Assembly (NCBI RefSeq): GCF_001984155.1
Contig: NZ_MTQO01000031.1
Location: forward strand, 62,001-126,000
DNA length: 64,000 bases
Direction: 5' to 3'
DNA from: Actinosynnema sp. ALI-1.44
GTDB lineage: Bacteria; Actinomycetota; Actinomycetes; Mycobacteriales; Pseudonocardiaceae
Of this stretch, positions 32,841 through 41,503 are shown one piece after another. The number at the start of each line of letters is the position of its first letter. The first letter of the stretch is position 1. The translations under genes were made by a program, and so were the position numbers. Under the pieces are notes generated by a model. It worked only from the letters and a program-made list of their open reading frames with translations. It did not search any database and had not been told where the DNA came from.

Positions 32841-34757
32841 TCAACCGGTGGACGCCTCAGCGGCCGCGGCACGTTCCAGCAGCTCCAACGCCTTGTCACG
32901 GCCAGGCTTGGCCCCGAGTCCCTGGTTCATGGTCAGCGCCTTTTCGGCCGTCGCACGAGCTCGCTCACCATCCCCGACTTCCAGCCGTATCTCTGCCAAC
33001 GTGTTCAACGTGTTCGCCTCATGCAACCGCATCCCCCGTTCTCTCGCCAGTTCGATCGCCCGCAGCGCGAGGTCCACGTTCCGGGTGAGCAGTGCGATCC
33101 CGGCGAGGGCCTCAACCTCGACTTCCGTTATCCGCAAGTCGTGCGCGAGGCCGTGACCTCGTCGATAGTGATCCAGTGCCAGGCCACGCCGACCGGCCGA
33201 CAGGTGGATCAAGCCGATCACGACATGGCACTCGGCCGCGTACCGCTGGTCACGACGATGCCGTGAGCGCTGAAGTCCATACCGGGTATCACTCCCAGCA
33301 AACCAAAGGCGCGCTGCTCCTCCTTGCTCAGCGTGGCGAATGACGCGTCGAAGGCCGCGCGCACCGCCAACCCGGTGTCGCCTGGTGTCTTCAGTTTGGC
33401 CAATCGGTCACCTGTGCGCAGCTCCTCGGTGTACCGGCTGACCCGGAGCGTGGGTCGACTGACCAGGTTCGCGGCTGCTATCCGAAGGGCGAGCGGAAGT
33501 CCCGCGCAGAGATCGGTGAGCTCACTGAAAGCATGTTCATCCGCGGTGAACCGGCTCTGTCCGGCGATCCGGGCAACCAAATCCCTGGAGTGCCGCGACG
33601 GCAACGGTCGCAACGCGAGCCGTTGCCCGCCGTACAGGACGGACAAGTCGGCCAGTTCGGAACGGCTCGACACCAACACGGAACTGCCGGGTCTGCCGGG
33701 GAGCAGTGGCGCCACCTGGTCGACGCTGCCCGCGTCGTCCAACACCACCAGCACTTTGCGGCCGGACAACCTGGAACGCAACAACGCCACGCGTTCTTCG
33801 ATTCCATGGGGGAGTTCCGACGCCGGAACCCCGGCTGTCCGAAGTAGCTCGGCGAGCAGCTCAGCACCAGACCGAGGTTTCGCGCTCGCACCGTTGAGTC
33901 GAAGAAACCATTGCCCGTCCGGGAATTCATCGACCAACCGATGTGCGGCCCGTATCACCAACGCCGACTTGCCCATGCCTGGTGGGCCGCTGACGGTCAC
34001 GACCGGAACGCTCTTGTCGGCGCACGACAAACTCAAGAGGCGGTTGAGCTCCTCATCGCGGTTGATGAAATCCCCGATGTCGACAGGCAACTGGCACTCG
34101 ACACGCCACCCGTCGTCATCACCGGCCAGCACGACTTGGTGCGCCTGCCGCAATGCCCTACCCGGCTCGACGCCCAACTCGACGTCCAGCCGCTGCCGAA
34201 CAGTCGAGTACGCTTCCAATGCTTCCGCCTGGCGACCACACCGGAACAATCCCAACACCAGCAGAGACCACATGCGTTCCCGTAACGGATGGGCCAACGC
34301 CAACGCCTGGAAATCCGGCAGCGCGGATTCCTGCAGTCCAGTCTGGAGTTCCAACTCGAACCGCCGCTCGATCACCTGCAGACGATGCTCCGCGAAAGGT
34401 TCGACCATTCTCCGCAAATAGTCGGAAGACACGTCGACCAGCGGCTTGTCACGCCACAACGCCAACGCCTCGTCGAGAACGTCTGCTTCCGAGCCGGTAC
34501 CCGTCCGCCCCGGCCTCAATCGCAGCCGCGTTGCCGATGATGGCACGCAGCCGGGCCACCAGCGTGTAGACGGCGGGGCGCGGATTCGCCGGGAGGTCAT
34601 CGCCCCACACAGCCTCGACCAACTCGTCGAACCCGACGACGTTGTTGGCCTTCAACACCAGCGCCGCGAGCAGACACCGCAGCCGACCAGACCCTATGCG
34701 TACCGGAGAACCGTCGTCCGACAGCACTTCGAGCGGCCCAAGAATCCGAAATCTCAC
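32841..34757 (-). pseudogene. SARP/AfsR-type regulator remnant 1 (SARP-NB-ARC-TPR, two lesions)
   Basis: GTG 34757, 5 nt after GGGGAG, starts a SARP winged helix (VRFRILGPLEVLS to YTLVARLRAIIG). Near 34500 the frame breaks, and the BTAD domain continues in another frame (EADVLDEALALWRDKPLVDVSS, then VRQRLDVELGVEPGRALR). It is followed by an NB-ARC ATPase with Walker A GPPGMGKSA and Walker B VLVVLDDAG. At 33218 the NB-ARC frame ends prematurely (ATGTCGTGA), and only the final TPRs remain in a third frame (32841-33221). A full AfsR-like protein would be several hundred residues longer. Remnant 2 lies immediately downstream and is a paralogue. Confidence 0.85.
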
Positions 34758-35182: not shown

Positions 35183-38107
35183 CTACTGGCTTTCCTCGTA
35201 CGCGGAGGCGGCGAAGTCGCTCAGCTCCATCCGGTCGGCGACCTCGGCCTTCATGATCAGGCTCGCTACGTGCTTCTCGACCGTTCTCGGTGAGATGTGC
35301 AGGCGGTTGGCGATGGCTTTGTTCGTCAGGCGCTCACGCAGCAACTGCAGCACTTCGTGCTCGCGGACTGTGACGCCTCTCGCGCGCAGGTCGTCCGGGA
35401 CCTGATCCATGCCGGTTCGGCGCTGCTTCACCGACGCGCCCGCGTGCCGCAGCAGTGAACGGCACGCGCTGGCGACCGCGGGCACCGACAACTGGTGGAA
35501 GTACTCCTCGGCTCGGCGAACCCAGGCGATGGGATCACCCCAGCCGTCGGCGATCGCGGCTTCGGCGACCAGCCGCATGCCGAGGTGCCGTGCCATCCCG
35601 TAGATCGCGGAATCCTCCTGCGCCGAGTCGGCCGCGGCGTTCGCCTCCTCGGCGCGACCGTCCCGCCCGAGCAACACGGCCTCGGCGAGCCGCACGAACT
35701 GGCGGTTCCAGCGCATCGTGCTCTGTACCGTGTCGGTCGCTTCGTGGTACTCCGTCCAGCCCGCGTCGCCGTCGAGCACGGCGAGGAACAGATGCAGCCC
35801 GTGTCTGCCGGCGAGCTGGAACAGCGAAGGCACGTCTGTCGTCGAAGAGATCATCCGGAGGAGCTCCTCGCGGGCCAACCCGCGGTTCTCCTCGAGCAGC
35901 GCGCAGAACGTCCTGGCGAAGCCGAGTGTCAGCGGCAACTCCTGGGCGTTCACGTCCTCCCATTCCGCGAACTCGGCGAGCGCCCGCTCCATCTCGGTAC
36001 GCTTGCCCTGATGAGCCGCGAGGGTGGCTTGAACCATCAACATGTAACGGATCTGCGGCCGCAGCCGAAGCCTGAGCACGTCCTGCTTGCCCTGCGCGAG
36101 CAGTTGCGCGGTCTTGCCGAAGTCACCCCGCAGCACCGCGTCGGTGGCCAGGTTGCCCTGAATCTGGTAACCGACAGCGACGGCACCGACTCGCTGGGCC
36201 TCCTCGATCGTGTTCTCCATCCCGGCGACGTCGCCGTTCGCGAGCCAGTCGTTGCCTGCGAGGCGGGCGAGCGCGTACACGCGCGGAATCGGCAGCCGTT
36301 GTTCCTCGGCCAGTTCACGCGCGCGTTGCAGACACCGGCTGGACTCCTCCAGGCTTCGTTCCCGCGCCACGTCCGCCACGACTTGCCACGCGTCGCACAG
36401 CACGGTCGGCAGATTCGCGCGTTCGGCCGCGGCGATCGCCCTGCGCGCAAGCGCCTCAGCCCGTTCGCCGCGGTTGCGGCCACCGCCCTGCCAGGTGAGC
36501 TTGGCCGCCATCGCGTCGATCGGCGCGGCTTCCTCCTCTGCCGCATCCGTTCCCAGGAGGGCCCTGGCTTCAGTGACCTGGTTCATCCCCTCAGCGGAGA
36601 GACCTGCGACGAAGTAGACCTGCGCGAGCCGCGTGTGCAGGCTAGCTCTGGCAGCCGCGCCGAGGTCCGCGCCACGGACCTGGTCGAGCGAGTCGACCAG
36701 TGCCCGAGCACGGTCGATCTCCCCCGCCTCGGCCAAGGCGTAGAGCAGGGTCTGCAGGATCTCCGCCTTGCCCTCCGCGGTGCCTTCACCTTGCAGCAGC
36801 GCGTTGGCTCGGTCGAGCAGTTTGACCGATGAACCGGACGCGCCGTCGGTCAGCGCTCTGCGGCCCGCTTCCGCGAACAACCGGGCGGCACTGTTGACGT
36901 CACCGGCATCCGCCTGCAGTGTCGCCACGAGCTGACACCACTCGCCCGGCAGGCCCGGGTGCAGCACTTGGACGGCTTCCGCCGCGCGCCGTGAGTACTC
37001 CGCGCGATCGGTCGGCGTCAGAGCGGCCCGGAGAGCCTCGGCGGTCAGCGGGTGCCGGAAGGCGTACCAGTCCGGCGCCGCGTCGTCCGGCGCGACCAGT
37101 TGCGCGGCGACCGCTGCTCTCAAGTGCGACAGCATGCTGCGCTGGTCCAGTGCTGTCACGTGCCCGACCACGGACAGCGGGAACCGGTCGCCGAGAACTG
37201 CTGCGACGGACAGCAGCGTGCTGCCCTGTTGCCCGAGTTGTTCCGCCCGGTCGATGACACCTCGCAGCACCGCCTCAGGGACGTCGGCACGCATCTCACC
37301 GATTACCCGCCACCCACCGCCAGCGCGTACCAGCACACCGTCGGCGACCAGTTGGTGGAGCATCTCCTCGATGATGAACGGGATGCCCGCGCTGTCCTCG
37401 GTGAGCCTGCTGCTCACCTCGATCGGCAGCTCACCGGGTGTGGTCTCCAGACAAGACGCGGCGAGCCGGTTGACGTCGTCATCCGCCAGCCGGTTGAGCG
37501 TGAGTATCGACGCCGAGTGACGCTGGCTGGCCGTCCTGGCCAGGTCGAGCGCCGCACACGGTTCGTCCCTTATGGTCGCGATCAGCAGAATCGGCAGATC
37601 CGTCACGTTGTCGGTCAAGTACTCGACGATGGCGAGGGTCTCGGAGTCCGCGTGCTGCAAGTCTTCCAGCACCACAAGACATCCGTCTGACCGACCGGCG
37701 ACTGTGATCAGTCGCAGAACCGCTTCACCAAGCACCACAAGGGAGTCGCCGCCGGTGGCCTCGCCCGGCTGTTGCAGATCGGGGATCAACCTGCCGAGAA
37801 TCGGGCGATACGGACCGAGTGCCGGATCATCCGGAGGGTGTCCGCTGCGGAACAACCCGAGCAGGGCCTCGGTCAACGGCCGGAACGGCACGATTGGGCC
37901 GATTGTCGTGCCCCGACCTCGTAATACACGGACACCTGAAGCGAATGCGATCCCGGCCGCCTCCGCCGCGAGCCTGGATTTGCCGATGCCCGGCTCGCCG
38001 ATGAGGAAGACCGCGCCGCCACGCGAGGATCTGGCGGCGTCGATCGCCCTCGTCAACTCGGCCACCTCACGGTCTCGGCCGATCACGAGCGGGGAGCGGG
38101 ACACCAT
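35183..38107 (-). CDS. LuxR-family LAL-type transcriptional regulator
   Basis: The 974-residue protein has an N-terminal AAA-type ATPase (Walker A FLIGEPGIGKSRLAAEA; Walker B-like CLVVLEDLQHADS), a long TPR-like helical middle (about residues 380-890) and a C-terminal LuxR HTH (VREHEVLQLLRERLTNKAIANRLHISPRTVEKHV). This is the LAL architecture used by many pathway-specific activators of actinomycete secondary metabolism. It follows the LanM gene and the small peptide gene on the same strand with a 66-bp gap to the peptide stop. It is the obvious candidate regulator of that locus. The ATPase looks intact. Confidence 0.92.
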   Translation of the reverse strand: MVSRSPLVIGRDREVAELTRAIDAARSSRGGAVFLIGEPGIGKSRLAAEAAGIAFASGVRVLRGRGTTIGPIVPFRPLTEALLGLFRSGHPPDDPALGPYRPILGRLIPDLQQPGEATGGDSLVVLGEAVLRLITVAGRSDGCLVVLEDLQHADSETLAIVEYLTDNVTDLPILLIATIRDEPCAALDLARTASQRHSASILTLNRLADDDVNRLAASCLETTPGELPIEVSSRLTEDSAGIPFIIEEMLHQLVADGVLVRAGGGWRVIGEMRADVPEAVLRGVIDRAEQLGQQGSTLLSVAAVLGDRFPLSVVGHVTALDQRSMLSHLRAAVAAQLVAPDDAAPDWYAFRHPLTAEALRAALTPTDRAEYSRRAAEAVQVLHPGLPGEWCQLVATLQADAGDVNSAARLFAEAGRRALTDGASGSSVKLLDRANALLQGEGTAEGKAEILQTLLYALAEAGEIDRARALVDSLDQVRGADLGAAARASLHTRLAQVYFVAGLSAEGMNQVTEARALLGTDAAEEEAAPIDAMAAKLTWQGGGRNRGERAEALARRAIAAAERANLPTVLCDAWQVVADVARERSLEESSRCLQRARELAEEQRLPIPRVYALARLAGNDWLANGDVAGMENTIEEAQRVGAVAVGYQIQGNLATDAVLRGDFGKTAQLLAQGKQDVLRLRLRPQIRYMLMVQATLAAHQGKRTEMERALAEFAEWEDVNAQELPLTLGFARTFCALLEENRGLAREELLRMISSTTDVPSLFQLAGRHGLHLFLAVLDGDAGWTEYHEATDTVQSTMRWNRQFVRLAEAVLLGRDGRAEEANAAADSAQEDSAIYGMARHLGMRLVAEAAIADGWGDPIAWVRRAEEYFHQLSVPAVASACRSLLRHAGASVKQRRTGMDQVPDDLRARGVTVREHEVLQLLRERLTNKAIANRLHISPRTVEKHVASLIMKAEVADRMELSDFAASAYEESQ

Positions 38108-38173
38108 GGCCGGACAGTACCCAGGATCCCCCGTTCGGTTGAAGCCCGAACTGTCGGAGATCTCACCGCCGGG

Positions 38174-38362
38174 CTAGCTCTCCGCCGTTAGTGTGAAGGT
38201 ATGCGCCTCGATCCTGGAGACAGCACTCCGCCCGGGGAACAGATCCATGCGGTAGCCAGCGAGCGCGTTCACCCGGGCGGCGATGTCCCGCCGTGACGAG
38301 CTCATGATCTGGCCGGCGGGGTGGTTGGCTCCGACGAGCGATTCGGCGGTCAGGCTGCTCAT
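38174..38362 (-). CDS. 62-residue Ser/Thr-rich peptide; candidate precursor of the adjacent LanM
   Basis: The frame has a good ribosome-binding site (AGGAAG about 9 nt before the ATG) and lies 73 bp after lanM and 66 bp before the LAL gene, all on one strand. The peptide begins MSSLTAESLVG, has a helical-looking middle (SRRDIAARVNALAGYRMDLF) and a C-terminal segment of six Ser/Thr within 17 residues (SAVSRIEAHTFTLTAES). There is not a single cysteine, so no lanthionine could form within this peptide. If it is the LanM substrate, the product would be dehydrated but not thioether-bridged, or bridged to another partner. The segment LTAES occurs at both ends. I recognise no family; role and core position are inference. 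Confidence 0.55.
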   Translation of the reverse strand: MSSLTAESLVGANHPAGQIMSSSRRDIAARVNALAGYRMDLFPGRSAVSRIEAHTFTLTAES

Positions 38363-38435
38363 TACTGTGCTTCTTCCTGTGAGCGGGGCATCTCAAGGAG
38401 TGGGGTTGATCACTTGAGGGGTTGGACGGGGAGAA

Positions 38436-41336
38436 TCAGTACTGCTGCCCTGGGGTGGGTTCGAGCAGGAGCACCGAGGGGACCCGGCTGGCGAATCCCA
38501 GGCGGAGCAGGCCGTAGCCGATACCGGCGAGGCCGTTGAGCAGGCCGGCGGACACGACGCCGTGAGGCGTGCCACAGCGGACGCCTCCCCTGTCGATCGC
38601 GCCGAGCAGGAGACCCGCGTGGCGGGTGGCGGCCGCGGAGGCCTCGTAGTTGCCGCGCTGGCCCAGCACCATGAGGGCCTCGGTCACGCCGAGCTCTCCG
38701 TGGCACAGGCTCATGTCGCGCAGCGGCTGGTGTTCGGCCAGCGTGTTGGCCCAGTCCTCGGGGGCGTCGCGGTGGGCCATGGTGAAGCCCGCCAGGCCGC
38801 CGCACCAGCTCAGGTCCGTGCCGTCGGGCACTTCGGCGTCCAGGATCGCCCGGCCGACCTCGTAGTAGTGGTCGCCCGCGCCCGTCGCCGCGAAGCGCTG
38901 CAGTGCCCAGCCGATCCCGGTGTGCCCGTGGGCGAAGCCCGCGGTGGGCAGGTCGAGGCAGGTGCACGGCACCGTGTGCGCCTGCTCCACGAGCCTGTCC
39001 GCGAAGTCCCACGCCAGACGGCCTGCCGAGGGCAGCCCTGTCTCGCTGTGGACCGCCAGCATGGCCGCCAGGCCACCGGCGCTGCCCGCCGCGAAGCAGG
39101 CCAGCTCGTCGTCGGTCGCCGCCCTGGTCAGGTCGACCACCGCGGGCAGCCAGCTGCGGATCTCCGGGTCGTCGAGCAGGTTGCCCAGCCGCGCGATCGC
39201 GTAGCTGATGCCTCCCAGGCCGTGCGGGCCGCCGCAGCCGATCGTCACGCCGAGCTCCGGCTCGGTGATCAGCTGGTCGATGAGACGGGGCACTGGGCGG
39301 ACCGCGTCCCTGGCCAGTTCCGCGTAGCGCTGCACGCCGGTCAGGTCGGCGAGCTGCGCGAGGAACAGGGCCACTCCGCAATACCCGTGGGCGAGGCCGG
39401 CGCCCATCGGGAGAACCGCCCAGTGCTTGTCGATGATCGGCTCAAGGCCGAGCCAGTTCGCACGGCCGTCCCCGTGCATCGCCCTGGCACCGATCTCGTC
39501 CGCGATCCCGCACGCCGCCGACAGCAGCCGCTGCGGGTCGGGGATCGCCGACGTGCCCGCCCGGGGACGGGTCTCGCCTGTGCGGTGGGCCACCGGCTGC
39601 GCCCTGGTCGCCAGCGCTGCCGCGATCAGCCATTCCTGGTCGTAGCGGTCCACCTCGTCCATTGCGGCGATCTTCAGCACGACCGTCGCCAGCCCCGGGC
39701 CTTCCAGCAGGTCCGGCAGGCATTCGCCGTCCGCTGCCCACAGGTCGCGGGAACCGGGCTTGCTGGTGAACATCGGCAGGTCGCCTGCCCAGAGGTCGTT
39801 CAGCTCGCTCGGGATCAGCCGCTGCCGGGCCAGGTCGCAGGCCGAGTCGACGGTCAGTGCGTCGAACACACGCTCCCGCTGCACGGCGTCGCGCAGCACA
39901 TCCGGGTGGGTCGACTCGTCGAGCAGGGTCGCGTAGATCTGGCTCGGCCTGGCCACGACCCGGATCTCGTCGTTGGTGCACGCGGTCAGCAGGCCGATCA
40001 GCTCCGAGCGGTGCCGCACGATCGCGTCGTAGCCCTCGCGGAACCCGCCGAGCATCGCGGCACGGTACTCGGACGGCTCCACGTCGACCGCGCCGAGCCG
40101 CGGCCGGTTGGTCGCGCCACGGAACTCGCCACGACGACGCACGAGGCGCATCGCGTCGGTACCGACGCCGTCCCACGCGACCACGTCGCTCGGGGACTGG
40201 ACGCCCTTGTCGCCGCCGAGGGCGGACACGTCGACCGCGCCGTGCTCTCCGAGGAGCATCTGCGGCAGCAGCGCCATCCGGTGCACCGAGGAGGCGAGCA
40301 CGCGCGCCGCCGGGTCCGGCCCGGTCGCGGTCGGCTGCTCGAGCATGGGGTGGAACAGGGTCTCGACGTCCACGAGCACCGGCTGGTCGCCGCAGGCGAT
40401 CAGGTTCTCGTAGTGGATGTCGGCGCCGTCGACCGCGTACAGCAGCGCCAACAGCGCGCCCTGCCTGCGGTAGAACCGGTCGACCTCGGCGACCTGGGCG
40501 CACGGCCGGTGCTCGACGAACTCGAGCCAGCCGTAGCCGGTGCGCGTCACCGCGTCGACGCTGCGCAGGCCGAGGCCGAGAACCTTGGAGTTGAGCCAGC
40601 CGACCAGCCCGCTGTAGTGCCGGTGCAGGTCCAGCGACCGCGGCTTGTAGACGACCTTGCCGCCGCCCGCGAAGTGCAGGATCGCGACGCTGCGGCCGCG
40701 CTGGTGGGTGTCGCCGATGCCGGTGCGGATCTCCACCAGGTCGCCGGGGTCGGCCCCGCCGAACAGCCGCGCCACGATCAGGTCGCGGTCGGCGATGAAC
40801 CGCTCGATCAGCTCGACCTGCGCGTCCGCGATGAACTGGCACGCCTGGCCGAGCAGCCTGGCCAGTACCGGGTACTCGGCGAACAGCGTGGTCAGCCGCT
40901 CCGGGCTGGCCTGGGCGGAGATGAAGTCGGCGAAGCGCTCCTGCGCGGTGTCACCGGCGAGCCTGCCGGACACGCGTTCGACGTTGAGCTCCAGCACCAG
41001 GGTGCGAGCGGCCAGACCGGCGAGGCGCCTGCCCAGCTGCCGGTCGAAGGCAGCCGCGACGGCCGGCGCGTCGATCTTCCCCTCGGCGGCCGCCGTGGCC
41101 ACACGCTCACGGGCGATCCGCACCAGGGGCCGGAACACCCAGGCGAACGCGTCGGGCCAGTCGCACGGCACAGCCCCCTCGGCGCTGACCGGGCCACTGC
41201 CCACCGCCTCGTCGATCAGTTCGGCCCAGCGCGGGCGGCCCTGGACCGTCCACCGGCGTTCGGCGGCGGTCAGCGCGCCGGTCCACCATGGTCCGGAGTT
41301 GATCCCGTTGTCGCGGTGCGAAATCGCTTGGCTCAC
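38436..41336 (-). CDS. Class II lanthipeptide synthetase LanM
   Basis: The protein of about 966 residues has the two LanM domains. The N-terminal dehydratase contains VVYKPRSLDLH, the GADIHYENLIACG segment and VLVDVETLFHP, with the catalytic and nucleotide-binding residues expected of LanM kinases/lyases. The C-terminal LanC-like cyclase keeps the zinc ligands in SWCGGLAG and LCHGELG. Dehydration of Ser/Thr and cyclisation should both be possible. GTG 41336 (MSQAISHRDNG) is chosen; several upstream in-frame GTGs reach 41408 and none has a clear Shine-Dalgarno. No transporter, LanP protease or immunity gene is nearby, so the locus is minimal: synthetase, small peptide, regulator. Confidence 0.93.
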   Translation of the reverse strand: MSQAISHRDNGINSGPWWTGALTAAERRWTVQGRPRWAELIDEAVGSGPVSAEGAVPCDWPDAFAWVFRPLVRIARERVATAAAEGKIDAPAVAAAFDRQLGRRLAGLAARTLVLELNVERVSGRLAGDTAQERFADFISAQASPERLTTLFAEYPVLARLLGQACQFIADAQVELIERFIADRDLIVARLFGGADPGDLVEIRTGIGDTHQRGRSVAILHFAGGGKVVYKPRSLDLHRHYSGLVGWLNSKVLGLGLRSVDAVTRTGYGWLEFVEHRPCAQVAEVDRFYRRQGALLALLYAVDGADIHYENLIACGDQPVLVDVETLFHPMLEQPTATGPDPAARVLASSVHRMALLPQMLLGEHGAVDVSALGGDKGVQSPSDVVAWDGVGTDAMRLVRRRGEFRGATNRPRLGAVDVEPSEYRAAMLGGFREGYDAIVRHRSELIGLLTACTNDEIRVVARPSQIYATLLDESTHPDVLRDAVQRERVFDALTVDSACDLARQRLIPSELNDLWAGDLPMFTSKPGSRDLWAADGECLPDLLEGPGLATVVLKIAAMDEVDRYDQEWLIAAALATRAQPVAHRTGETRPRAGTSAIPDPQRLLSAACGIADEIGARAMHGDGRANWLGLEPIIDKHWAVLPMGAGLAHGYCGVALFLAQLADLTGVQRYAELARDAVRPVPRLIDQLITEPELGVTIGCGGPHGLGGISYAIARLGNLLDDPEIRSWLPAVVDLTRAATDDELACFAAGSAGGLAAMLAVHSETGLPSAGRLAWDFADRLVEQAHTVPCTCLDLPTAGFAHGHTGIGWALQRFAATGAGDHYYEVGRAILDAEVPDGTDLSWCGGLAGFTMAHRDAPEDWANTLAEHQPLRDMSLCHGELGVTEALMVLGQRGNYEASAAATRHAGLLLGAIDRGGVRCGTPHGVVSAGLLNGLAGIGYGLLRLGFASRVPSVLLLEPTPGQQY

Positions 41337-41503
41337 GAGTAAAGAGGCTGGCAGCGGGCGCACCCGCGAACATGGGTAACGACTCCCCACATTCGCGTCC
41401 GGCACCACCCGTATTGGGTAGTGGCGGGTCGCCGTCGAACTGCCGTTCCATCGACGGTACCGGCCTGTGCAGCACGGGTGCGACCGCTGTCACCCATCCG
41501 GAA

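Follow-up and report, generated by a model that had tools for sequence, protein, structure and literature searches.

A recurring LanM–peptide–LAL locus in Actinosynnema and other actinomycetes: a candidate signalling module with mostly cysteine-free precursors

In STAND ATPases of the MalT and LAL type, an ATPase domain is followed by a TPR-like sensor and a C-terminal LuxR-type helix-turn-helix (HTH), and MalT binds maltotriose. Class II lanthipeptide synthetases (LanMs) such as CylM and LicM2 carry dehydratase and zinc-cyclase residues in a constant domain order and are encoded beside a small precursor peptide. Precursors without cysteine have been described for LanMs in clusters that combine LanM with LanKC (Zhang et al. 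2015, as related in Walker et al. 2020, PMC7268733) and, again according to Walker et al., for cyanotins. We analyzed a 64,000-nucleotide stretch of the Actinosynnema sp. ALI-1.44 genome (contig NZ_MTQO01000031.1, positions 62,001–126,000; "the window"), which encodes in succession a LanM with the domain order and residues of CylM and LicM2, a 62-residue peptide and a LAL regulator. Across actinomycetes, lanM, a gene for a small, usually cysteine-free peptide and a LAL gene recur together as a module of three. We give about an even chance to the reading that the module is autoregulatory and pairs a peptide signal with a STAND receptor, the signal being dehydrated and usually unbridged. The initial annotation, made from the window alone, had described a minimal LanM locus; its layout holds, but the LAL as part of the unit and the co-variation of peptide and sensor were overlooked. 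The features of the locus are as follows.

35183–38107, reverse strand: LAL/STAND regulator of 974 amino acids with AAA ATPase, helical sensor and LuxR-type HTH (Pfam AAA_16 and GerE; AlphaFold2; Foldseek).
35210–35395, reverse strand: conserved C-terminal LuxR-type HTH of the LAL (GerE, residues 913–966).
35438–36943, reverse strand: TPR-like sensor of the LAL (residues 389–890), hypervariable in the genus (AlphaFold2 helices; identity per helix).
38114–38119, reverse strand: TACTGT, kept in 8/8 genus loci; lying 6 nt upstream of the ATG, it may be the −10 element if the LAL transcript is leaderless.
38174–38362, reverse strand: precursor peptide gene, 62 amino acids, no Cys, at the same place in 8/8 genus genomes (family hidden Markov model, E 2.9e-15, trained on the same set).
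38177–38254, reverse strand: Ser/Thr-bearing, hypervariable core (residues 37–62), the leader/core boundary being a predicted one.
38255–38362, reverse strand: leader part (residues 1–36) with HPAGQI and ARVNALAG motifs, from an alignment of 20 diverse peptides.
38436–41336, reverse strand: lanM, class II lanthipeptide-synthetase homologue of 966 amino acids, GTG start at 41336 (TIGR03897, DUF4135, LANC_like).
41369–41393, no strand: candidate dyad operator AATGTGGGG-N7-ACCCATGTT, 32 bp from the lanM start codon, the exact site of the pattern in its own genome.

The comparison set of 86 loci consists of the best 80 of 199 confirmed relatives, the window and five more loci of its genus, with less similar LanMs outside the sample. 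It covers 13 actinomycete genera and one metagenome-assembled genome (MAG), and contains 93 precursors, some of them in tandem. The lanM gene is followed by a precursor at 85/86 loci and by a LAL-type open reading frame (ORF) at 85/86, LAL presence being the union of two pattern searches; at the exception, L105, the contig ends 23 bp past lanM. Genus labels were assigned by us; for L032 (titled Rhodococcus), L062 and L098 (Streptomyces) and L088 (Nocardia), the likeness of LanM and peptide took precedence over the record title. "Genus" stands for the GTDB genus, which includes L031 and L023, from one genome that looks like Actinocrispum, its other locus having a peptide identical to that of Actinocrispum wychmicini L061. 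The LanM has an orthologue in every one of the 8/8 genus genomes (88–97% identity for the seven others), and each time a short ORF and then a LAL gene come after it. Clustering by blastp of the open frames around 80 loci shows that LanM (80/80) and LAL (79/80) span genera. Among the 25 largest clusters listed, from about 8 kb around these loci, none but LanM and LAL occurs in more than five genera; 22 of the other 23 are confined to at most two genera, and the last, with 8 loci, occurs in five.

Within the taxonomic family to which the window genome belongs, peptide matches turned up in 84/297 genomes and LanM matches (E at most 1e-100) in 113/297. Of 86 peptide matches, 82 come straight after a LanM match and four are not beside one. 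These whole-genome searches scored 15–20 peptide candidates per genome and missed known members (G002 in the family search), and the class-wide search returned 2/394 genomes, missing the second locus of the window genome. As a control, four divergent LanM loci from the genus, taken with flanks of 1.5 kb, yielded no peptide of the family (0/4), with a profile that gave only E 0.76 for one (L016) of six known positives. Two side observations concern the sample itself: L047, on a contig of a Melainabacteria MAG, is a locus of actinomycete type and may be misbinned, and L032 (JOAA01000003.1), titled Rhodococcus rhodnii NRRL B-16535, has a locus as in a genome of the window's genus, which makes the name look wrong.

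The enzyme of the window scores 727 bits against TIGR03897, the class II lanthipeptide synthetase profile with a curated cut-off of 304, and 415 and 87 bits against Pfam DUF4135 and LANC_like. Residues were mapped through a profile of 13 LanM relatives aligned with CylM and LicM2. The equivalents of CylM D252, H254, D347, H349, N352, D364, E366 and R506 are unchanged in 86/86 LanMs, E366 being presumably one of the functional residues. The K274 position holds Lys in 65/86, including the window, and Arg in 21/86; at the T512 position Thr occurs in 74/86 and Ser in 12/86, again including the window. The zinc ligands C875, C911 and H912 are retained in 86/86. With the other roles assigned as in the account of CylM in PMC4550811, the window LanM thus has the kinase and elimination residues and all three zinc ligands, with Ser at the T512 position, and the annotated dehydratase and zinc-cyclase residues are borne out across the family, apart from the K/R and T/S exchanges at two positions. 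As separate observations, the His of the GFxHG motif is replaced by Arg in 63/86 LanMs but kept within the window's genus (H803 in the window, GFAHG), as it is in CylM and LicM2, and the first 40 residues of LanM (N-terminus at 41217–41333, reverse strand) are near-invariant in the genus, the 97% mean identity of the first 50 lying at the upper end for the enzyme.

The annotated small ORF of 62 residues without cysteine, preceded by a ribosome-binding site (GGAAGAAG) and followed by the LAL, was found as described. The window peptide thus lacks the core cysteine that a lanthipeptide product requires, and it belongs to no Pfam family and gives nothing near a cut-off in NCBIfam; none of seven scanned members of the precursor family reaches a Pfam or NCBIfam cut-off. 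All eight orthologous genus loci have an ORF for 61–64 residues with a ribosome-binding site at the equivalent spot, the core lacking Cys in 7/8, although the orthologous peptides are just 29–53% identical to that of the window. A chance ORF was ruled out by these eight loci and the family model match. The proposal that this ORF is the cognate precursor looks right: it passes the test of orthologous loci in 6/8 by direct match and in 8/8 by position and layout.

An alignment of 20 diverse precursors shows G17, R30 and G36 to be invariant and P15, A33 and L34 to be at least 90% conserved, and the 93 peptides have in common the leader motifs P-x-G and AR-x-x-AL-x-G (xGx[I/M]...ARxxALxG type). 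The core was defined as everything after the first ALAG-like motif. Cys is absent from 74/93 cores, and Ser or Thr is present in 93/93; at 68/85 loci every precursor lacks a core Cys. Ser and Thr make up 24.2% of the core versus 12.5% of the leader, Lys and His only 0.6% and 0.7% of the core, and 56/93 cores have none of Cys, Lys and His. Core ends frequently resemble TTVS or STWPTIE, with CSTWPTIES in some Kribbella cores and GSTWPTIES in others. Core Cys presence changes at least nine times on the LanM tree (FastTree). Since all cores hold Ser or Thr while Cys has been gained or lost repeatedly, the constrained feature of the core looks like Ser/Thr rather than Cys. The precursor model was trained on candidates from the same lanM–LAL gaps, and the precursors of L055, L080 and L107 were set by hand. 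At the Amycolatopsis loci L089 and L091, three Cys-less precursors stand in tandem between lanM and the LAL.

The LAL has the architecture of its class, with an N-terminal AAA ATPase, a helical sensor and a C-terminal LuxR HTH. Its AlphaFold2 model (mean pLDDT 88.3, pTM 0.67) shows an ATPase-like part and, besides the HTH, a long helical superhelix. A Foldseek search with the model returned the STAND-TPR structure 6mfv at the top (TM 0.30/0.41); entries for Apaf-1 and CED-4 come next, and MalT domain III (1hz4) ranks 39th. Residues ~450–850 average 63% identity in the genus versus 95% for the HTH. A scan for consensus promoters and terminators gave nothing.

Upstream of lanM, the dyad AATnTGGGG-N7-CCCCATnTT is present at 76/85 loci tested versus 1.6% of shuffles; the consensus was picked after viewing alignments, the shuffles moved two-base blocks, and one of the 86 loci was too short. 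With at most one mismatch, nine sites occur in the eight genus genomes (control 1), eight of them upstream of lanM, and seven of the eight genomes have the dyad once only. The dyad would fit autoregulation by the LAL. The four genus paralogues of the locus that were tested do not reach the dyad score, and the HTH is slightly different in two of them. The ninth site, G001:C24:64966-64990 (L182), is a perfect AATATGGGG-N7-CCCCATATT with no lanM nearby; it lies near ORFs that, read by eye, are GTPase-like and integrase-like.

Within the genus, the three genes diverge very unevenly. Mean pairwise identity among the eight orthologues is 92% for LanM, 42% for the leader, 22% for the core, and 85%, 63% and 95% for the AAA, TPR and HTH parts of the LAL (several rows of identity per region are partial). 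Synonymous divergence (dS) between the window and L029 is 0.18 for lanM and 0.16–0.44 for six genes on the lanM side, four of the flanking genes being named by eye, versus 0.92, 1.12 and 1.21 for the AAA, middle and TPR parts of the LAL and 0.35 for the HTH. Fast amino-acid evolution of the LAL alone was ruled out, synonymous divergence being raised as well against the baseline of the six flanking genes. For L032 and L033, identity is 84–99% (mostly above 90%) on the lanM side, 66–79% between the 3' end of lanM and the LAL HTH, and 88–95% beyond the LAL. The ratio of TPR to lanM dS has a median of 3.43 in the genus (2.21–12.38, 28 pairs) and medians of 0.89–1.25 in six other genera (0.49–1.77, 430 pairs), without overlap.

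Core and TPR similarity are correlated in the genus (r 0.61 and p 0.0042 in an exact Mantel test; p 0.0036 once LanM is accounted for), whereas core with LanM (p 0.33), core with HTH (p 0.21) and leader with TPR (p 0.097) are not. Partial core–TPR tests gave p 0.0035 in Kribbella and p 0.0005 in Saccharothrix. The LanM tree pairs the window with L029 (100/100), a pair that the TPR data reject (approximately unbiased test, p-AU 1.15e-06). On the TPR tree the window stands beside L032 only weakly (62/57), and a group of window, L032 and L033 is neither supported nor rejected (p-AU 0.080); a single TPR clade (100/100) unites L029, L051 and L035, whose cores are 30–41% alike. The window core is 71% identical to that of L032 and 8% to that of L029. 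In this one genus, peptide and sensor are thus divergent between conserved flanks and group in conflict with the LanM tree, as in a pherotype locus. Peptide core and TPR sensor vary together between species, as if each species had a private signal and receptor. On the LAL side, the window and L029 fail to align for ~2 kb, and an adjacent SARP/BTAD and NB-ARC-like ORF (33218–34600, reverse strand) shows dS of 1.3–1.6 to L033, L034, L035 and L051; for L029, L032 and L031, no counterpart turned up within the 20-kb stretches.

The neighbourhood contains neither transporter nor protease among six Pfam-assigned ORFs (10 scanned, at 21–32 and 47–51 kb, the rest of the window not being profile-scanned) nor among the AlkZ, TPR and SARP-like neighbours; the annotated absence of both holds for these ORFs. 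A defence system was considered and dropped, PADLOC giving weak partial matches only.

The own genome has a second LanM–peptide–LAL triad (L024 9344-12109; G000:C32:61344-64109), whose peptide is longer and, ending in PTLPVCSRRDPVVL, contains Cys. Paralogues of this kind, 50–53% identical, occupy five loci in 4/8 genus genomes, with the same layout and Cys-containing peptides. The dyad of the window's lanM family was not found upstream of the second triad. A profile search of the own genome, in which other LanA families were not searched for, brought only the window peptide and the second-locus peptide above noise.

Putting these features together, we propose that the LanM would recognize the conserved leader (HPAGQI...ARVNALAG here), and would phosphorylate and then eliminate Ser/Thr in the short C-terminal core to give a peptide with dehydroalanine (Dha) or dehydrobutyrine (Dhb). 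Lanthionine would be possible only in the minority of family members with a core Cys, and an unbridged dehydrated product would be the simplest outcome. The leader would be removed by an unlinked protease. The modified peptide, whether or not it leaves the cell, would serve as ligand for the cytoplasmic STAND/LAL protein encoded beside it, binding to the TPR superhelix of that protein. Through its HTH, the LAL would act at the dyad operator upstream of lanM and close a feedback loop. In the window's genus, core and TPR sensor would have diversified together into specificity groups. More broadly, and with somewhat less than an even chance in our estimate, actinomycete LanMs may make dehydrated, ring-free and possibly thiol-conjugated peptide pheromones read by an adjacent STAND/LAL receptor, the pairs of the Kibdelosporangium group being pherotypes swapped between species; in that case the pheromones would represent a new class of peptide signalling, and LanM would have a use other than lanthionine formation.

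Several observations weigh against the signalling module. The scanned neighbours show no linked exporter, importer or protease, and a single C39 match in the own genome, marginally over the cut-off, covers 51/133 positions. The adjacency of peptide and LAL means that linkage or recombination can give co-variation without contact. The core also correlates with the LAL AAA part (p 0.044, borderline), which lies in the divergent segment too, and Lentzea shows no partial core–TPR correlation (p 0.43), while that of Amycolatopsis is non-significant (p 0.15, n=6). The valley of divergence appears in one genus only, where the far side of the LAL is a clean conserved flank for L032/L033 and not for the window. 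The TPR part gives no signal of positive selection (dN/dS 0.11–0.28 in the 11 pairs computed). Strict operator targets beyond lanM are absent from the genus genomes except for the extra G001 site, and sites with exactly two mismatches are near the control (28 vs 25). Finally, a bridge-free product leaves the retained zinc site unexplained.

The locus could instead make an ordinary secreted ribosomally synthesized and post-translationally modified peptide, such as an antimicrobial, with the LAL as a mere pathway-specific activator and the divergent segment as a horizontal replacement that involves no ligand–receptor relation. LAL proteins commonly activate biosynthetic operons, the dyad is directly upstream of lanM, and the divergent segment includes the AAA region and not the sensor alone. 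However, no third gene is common to most genera among the clusters listed, divergence peaks in core and TPR while the HTH stays nearly invariant, and the core and TPR groups agree with each other in conflict with LanM; we regard such a product as rather unlikely. The zinc site, being kept, leaves room for thiol addition: the LanM could dehydrate the core and its zinc domain attach mycothiol or another small thiol to Dha/Dhb, giving a thiol conjugate, or the module could sense thiols. Such chemistry is compatible with signalling, and it would account for zinc ligands in every LanM at loci whose precursors mostly lack a core Cys; human LanCL1 binds glutathione with the thiol at the zinc, according to PMC4550811. 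The zinc site could equally be structural or be retained since Cys comes and goes, and the GFxHG His is Arg in most of the family; we judge a thiol product improbable.

Cyclization of the core through Lys, His or another side chain, which the initial annotation had raised, finds residues to draw on in the window core (one His, plus Asp, Glu and Arg), but the scarcity of Lys and His across the family, and the 56 cores without Cys, Lys or His, leave it unsupported as a general mechanism and in our view very improbable. We give the same small chance to a Cys-containing LanA elsewhere as the true substrate, with the 62-residue ORF as a bystander. The second locus does supply a related Cys-containing peptide; this peptide adjoins its own LanM, however, and is weak evidence for a substrate of the window enzyme, while the window ORF has counterparts at 8/8 orthologous loci and belongs to a family of 93, and the profile finds just the two peptides in the genome.

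If the signalling module is real, LanMs hold a conserved job that involves no lanthionine rings, and the ligands sensed by actinomycete LALs become directly testable, with candidate ligand, receptor and operator within ~6.2 kb and natural variants for swap experiments in the genus. Mining that demands a core Cys discards this precursor family, as at least one large pipeline does by design: Walker et al. 2020 (PMC7268733) state that they dropped any ORF whose estimated core had no Cys. Among the titles and abstract openings listed in searches of an open-licence library, none hinted at a LanM–peptide–LAL system, which is weak evidence of absence.

The locus differs from those of CylM and LicM2 in that most precursor cores lack Cys and a LAL is the constant partner. 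The LAL is also the constant partner here (LanKC was not searched for) when the locus is set beside the LanM+LanKC clusters and cyanotins as they are described in PMC7268733, with which it shares LanMs that have Cys-less precursors. MalT and the LAL regulators have in common the STAND ATPase, the TPR-like sensor and the C-terminal LuxR HTH, and the proposed ligand here would differ in being a peptide. RRNPP receptors are TPR-type proteins without an AAA domain. The putative receptor of the window also adjoins its peptide and has a TPR-like fold, but it is a STAND/LAL protein of AAA_16 and GerE architecture, its peptide has a LanM as modifying enzyme, and its hosts are actinomycetes; it is not a member of the RRNPP family and at most may work like one. 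The propeptide gene next to an intracellular receptor is itself a feature of Firmicutes quorum sensing as outlined in PMC10075063. The ComQXPA pherotypes of Bacillus, in the descriptions of PMC4008528 and PMC4408185, likewise keep modifying enzyme, peptide and receptor together and define communication groups; in the module described here the modifying enzyme is conserved and lies outside the variable segment, the receptor would be a cytoplasmic LAL rather than a histidine kinase, and the putative specificity is read from sequences alone.

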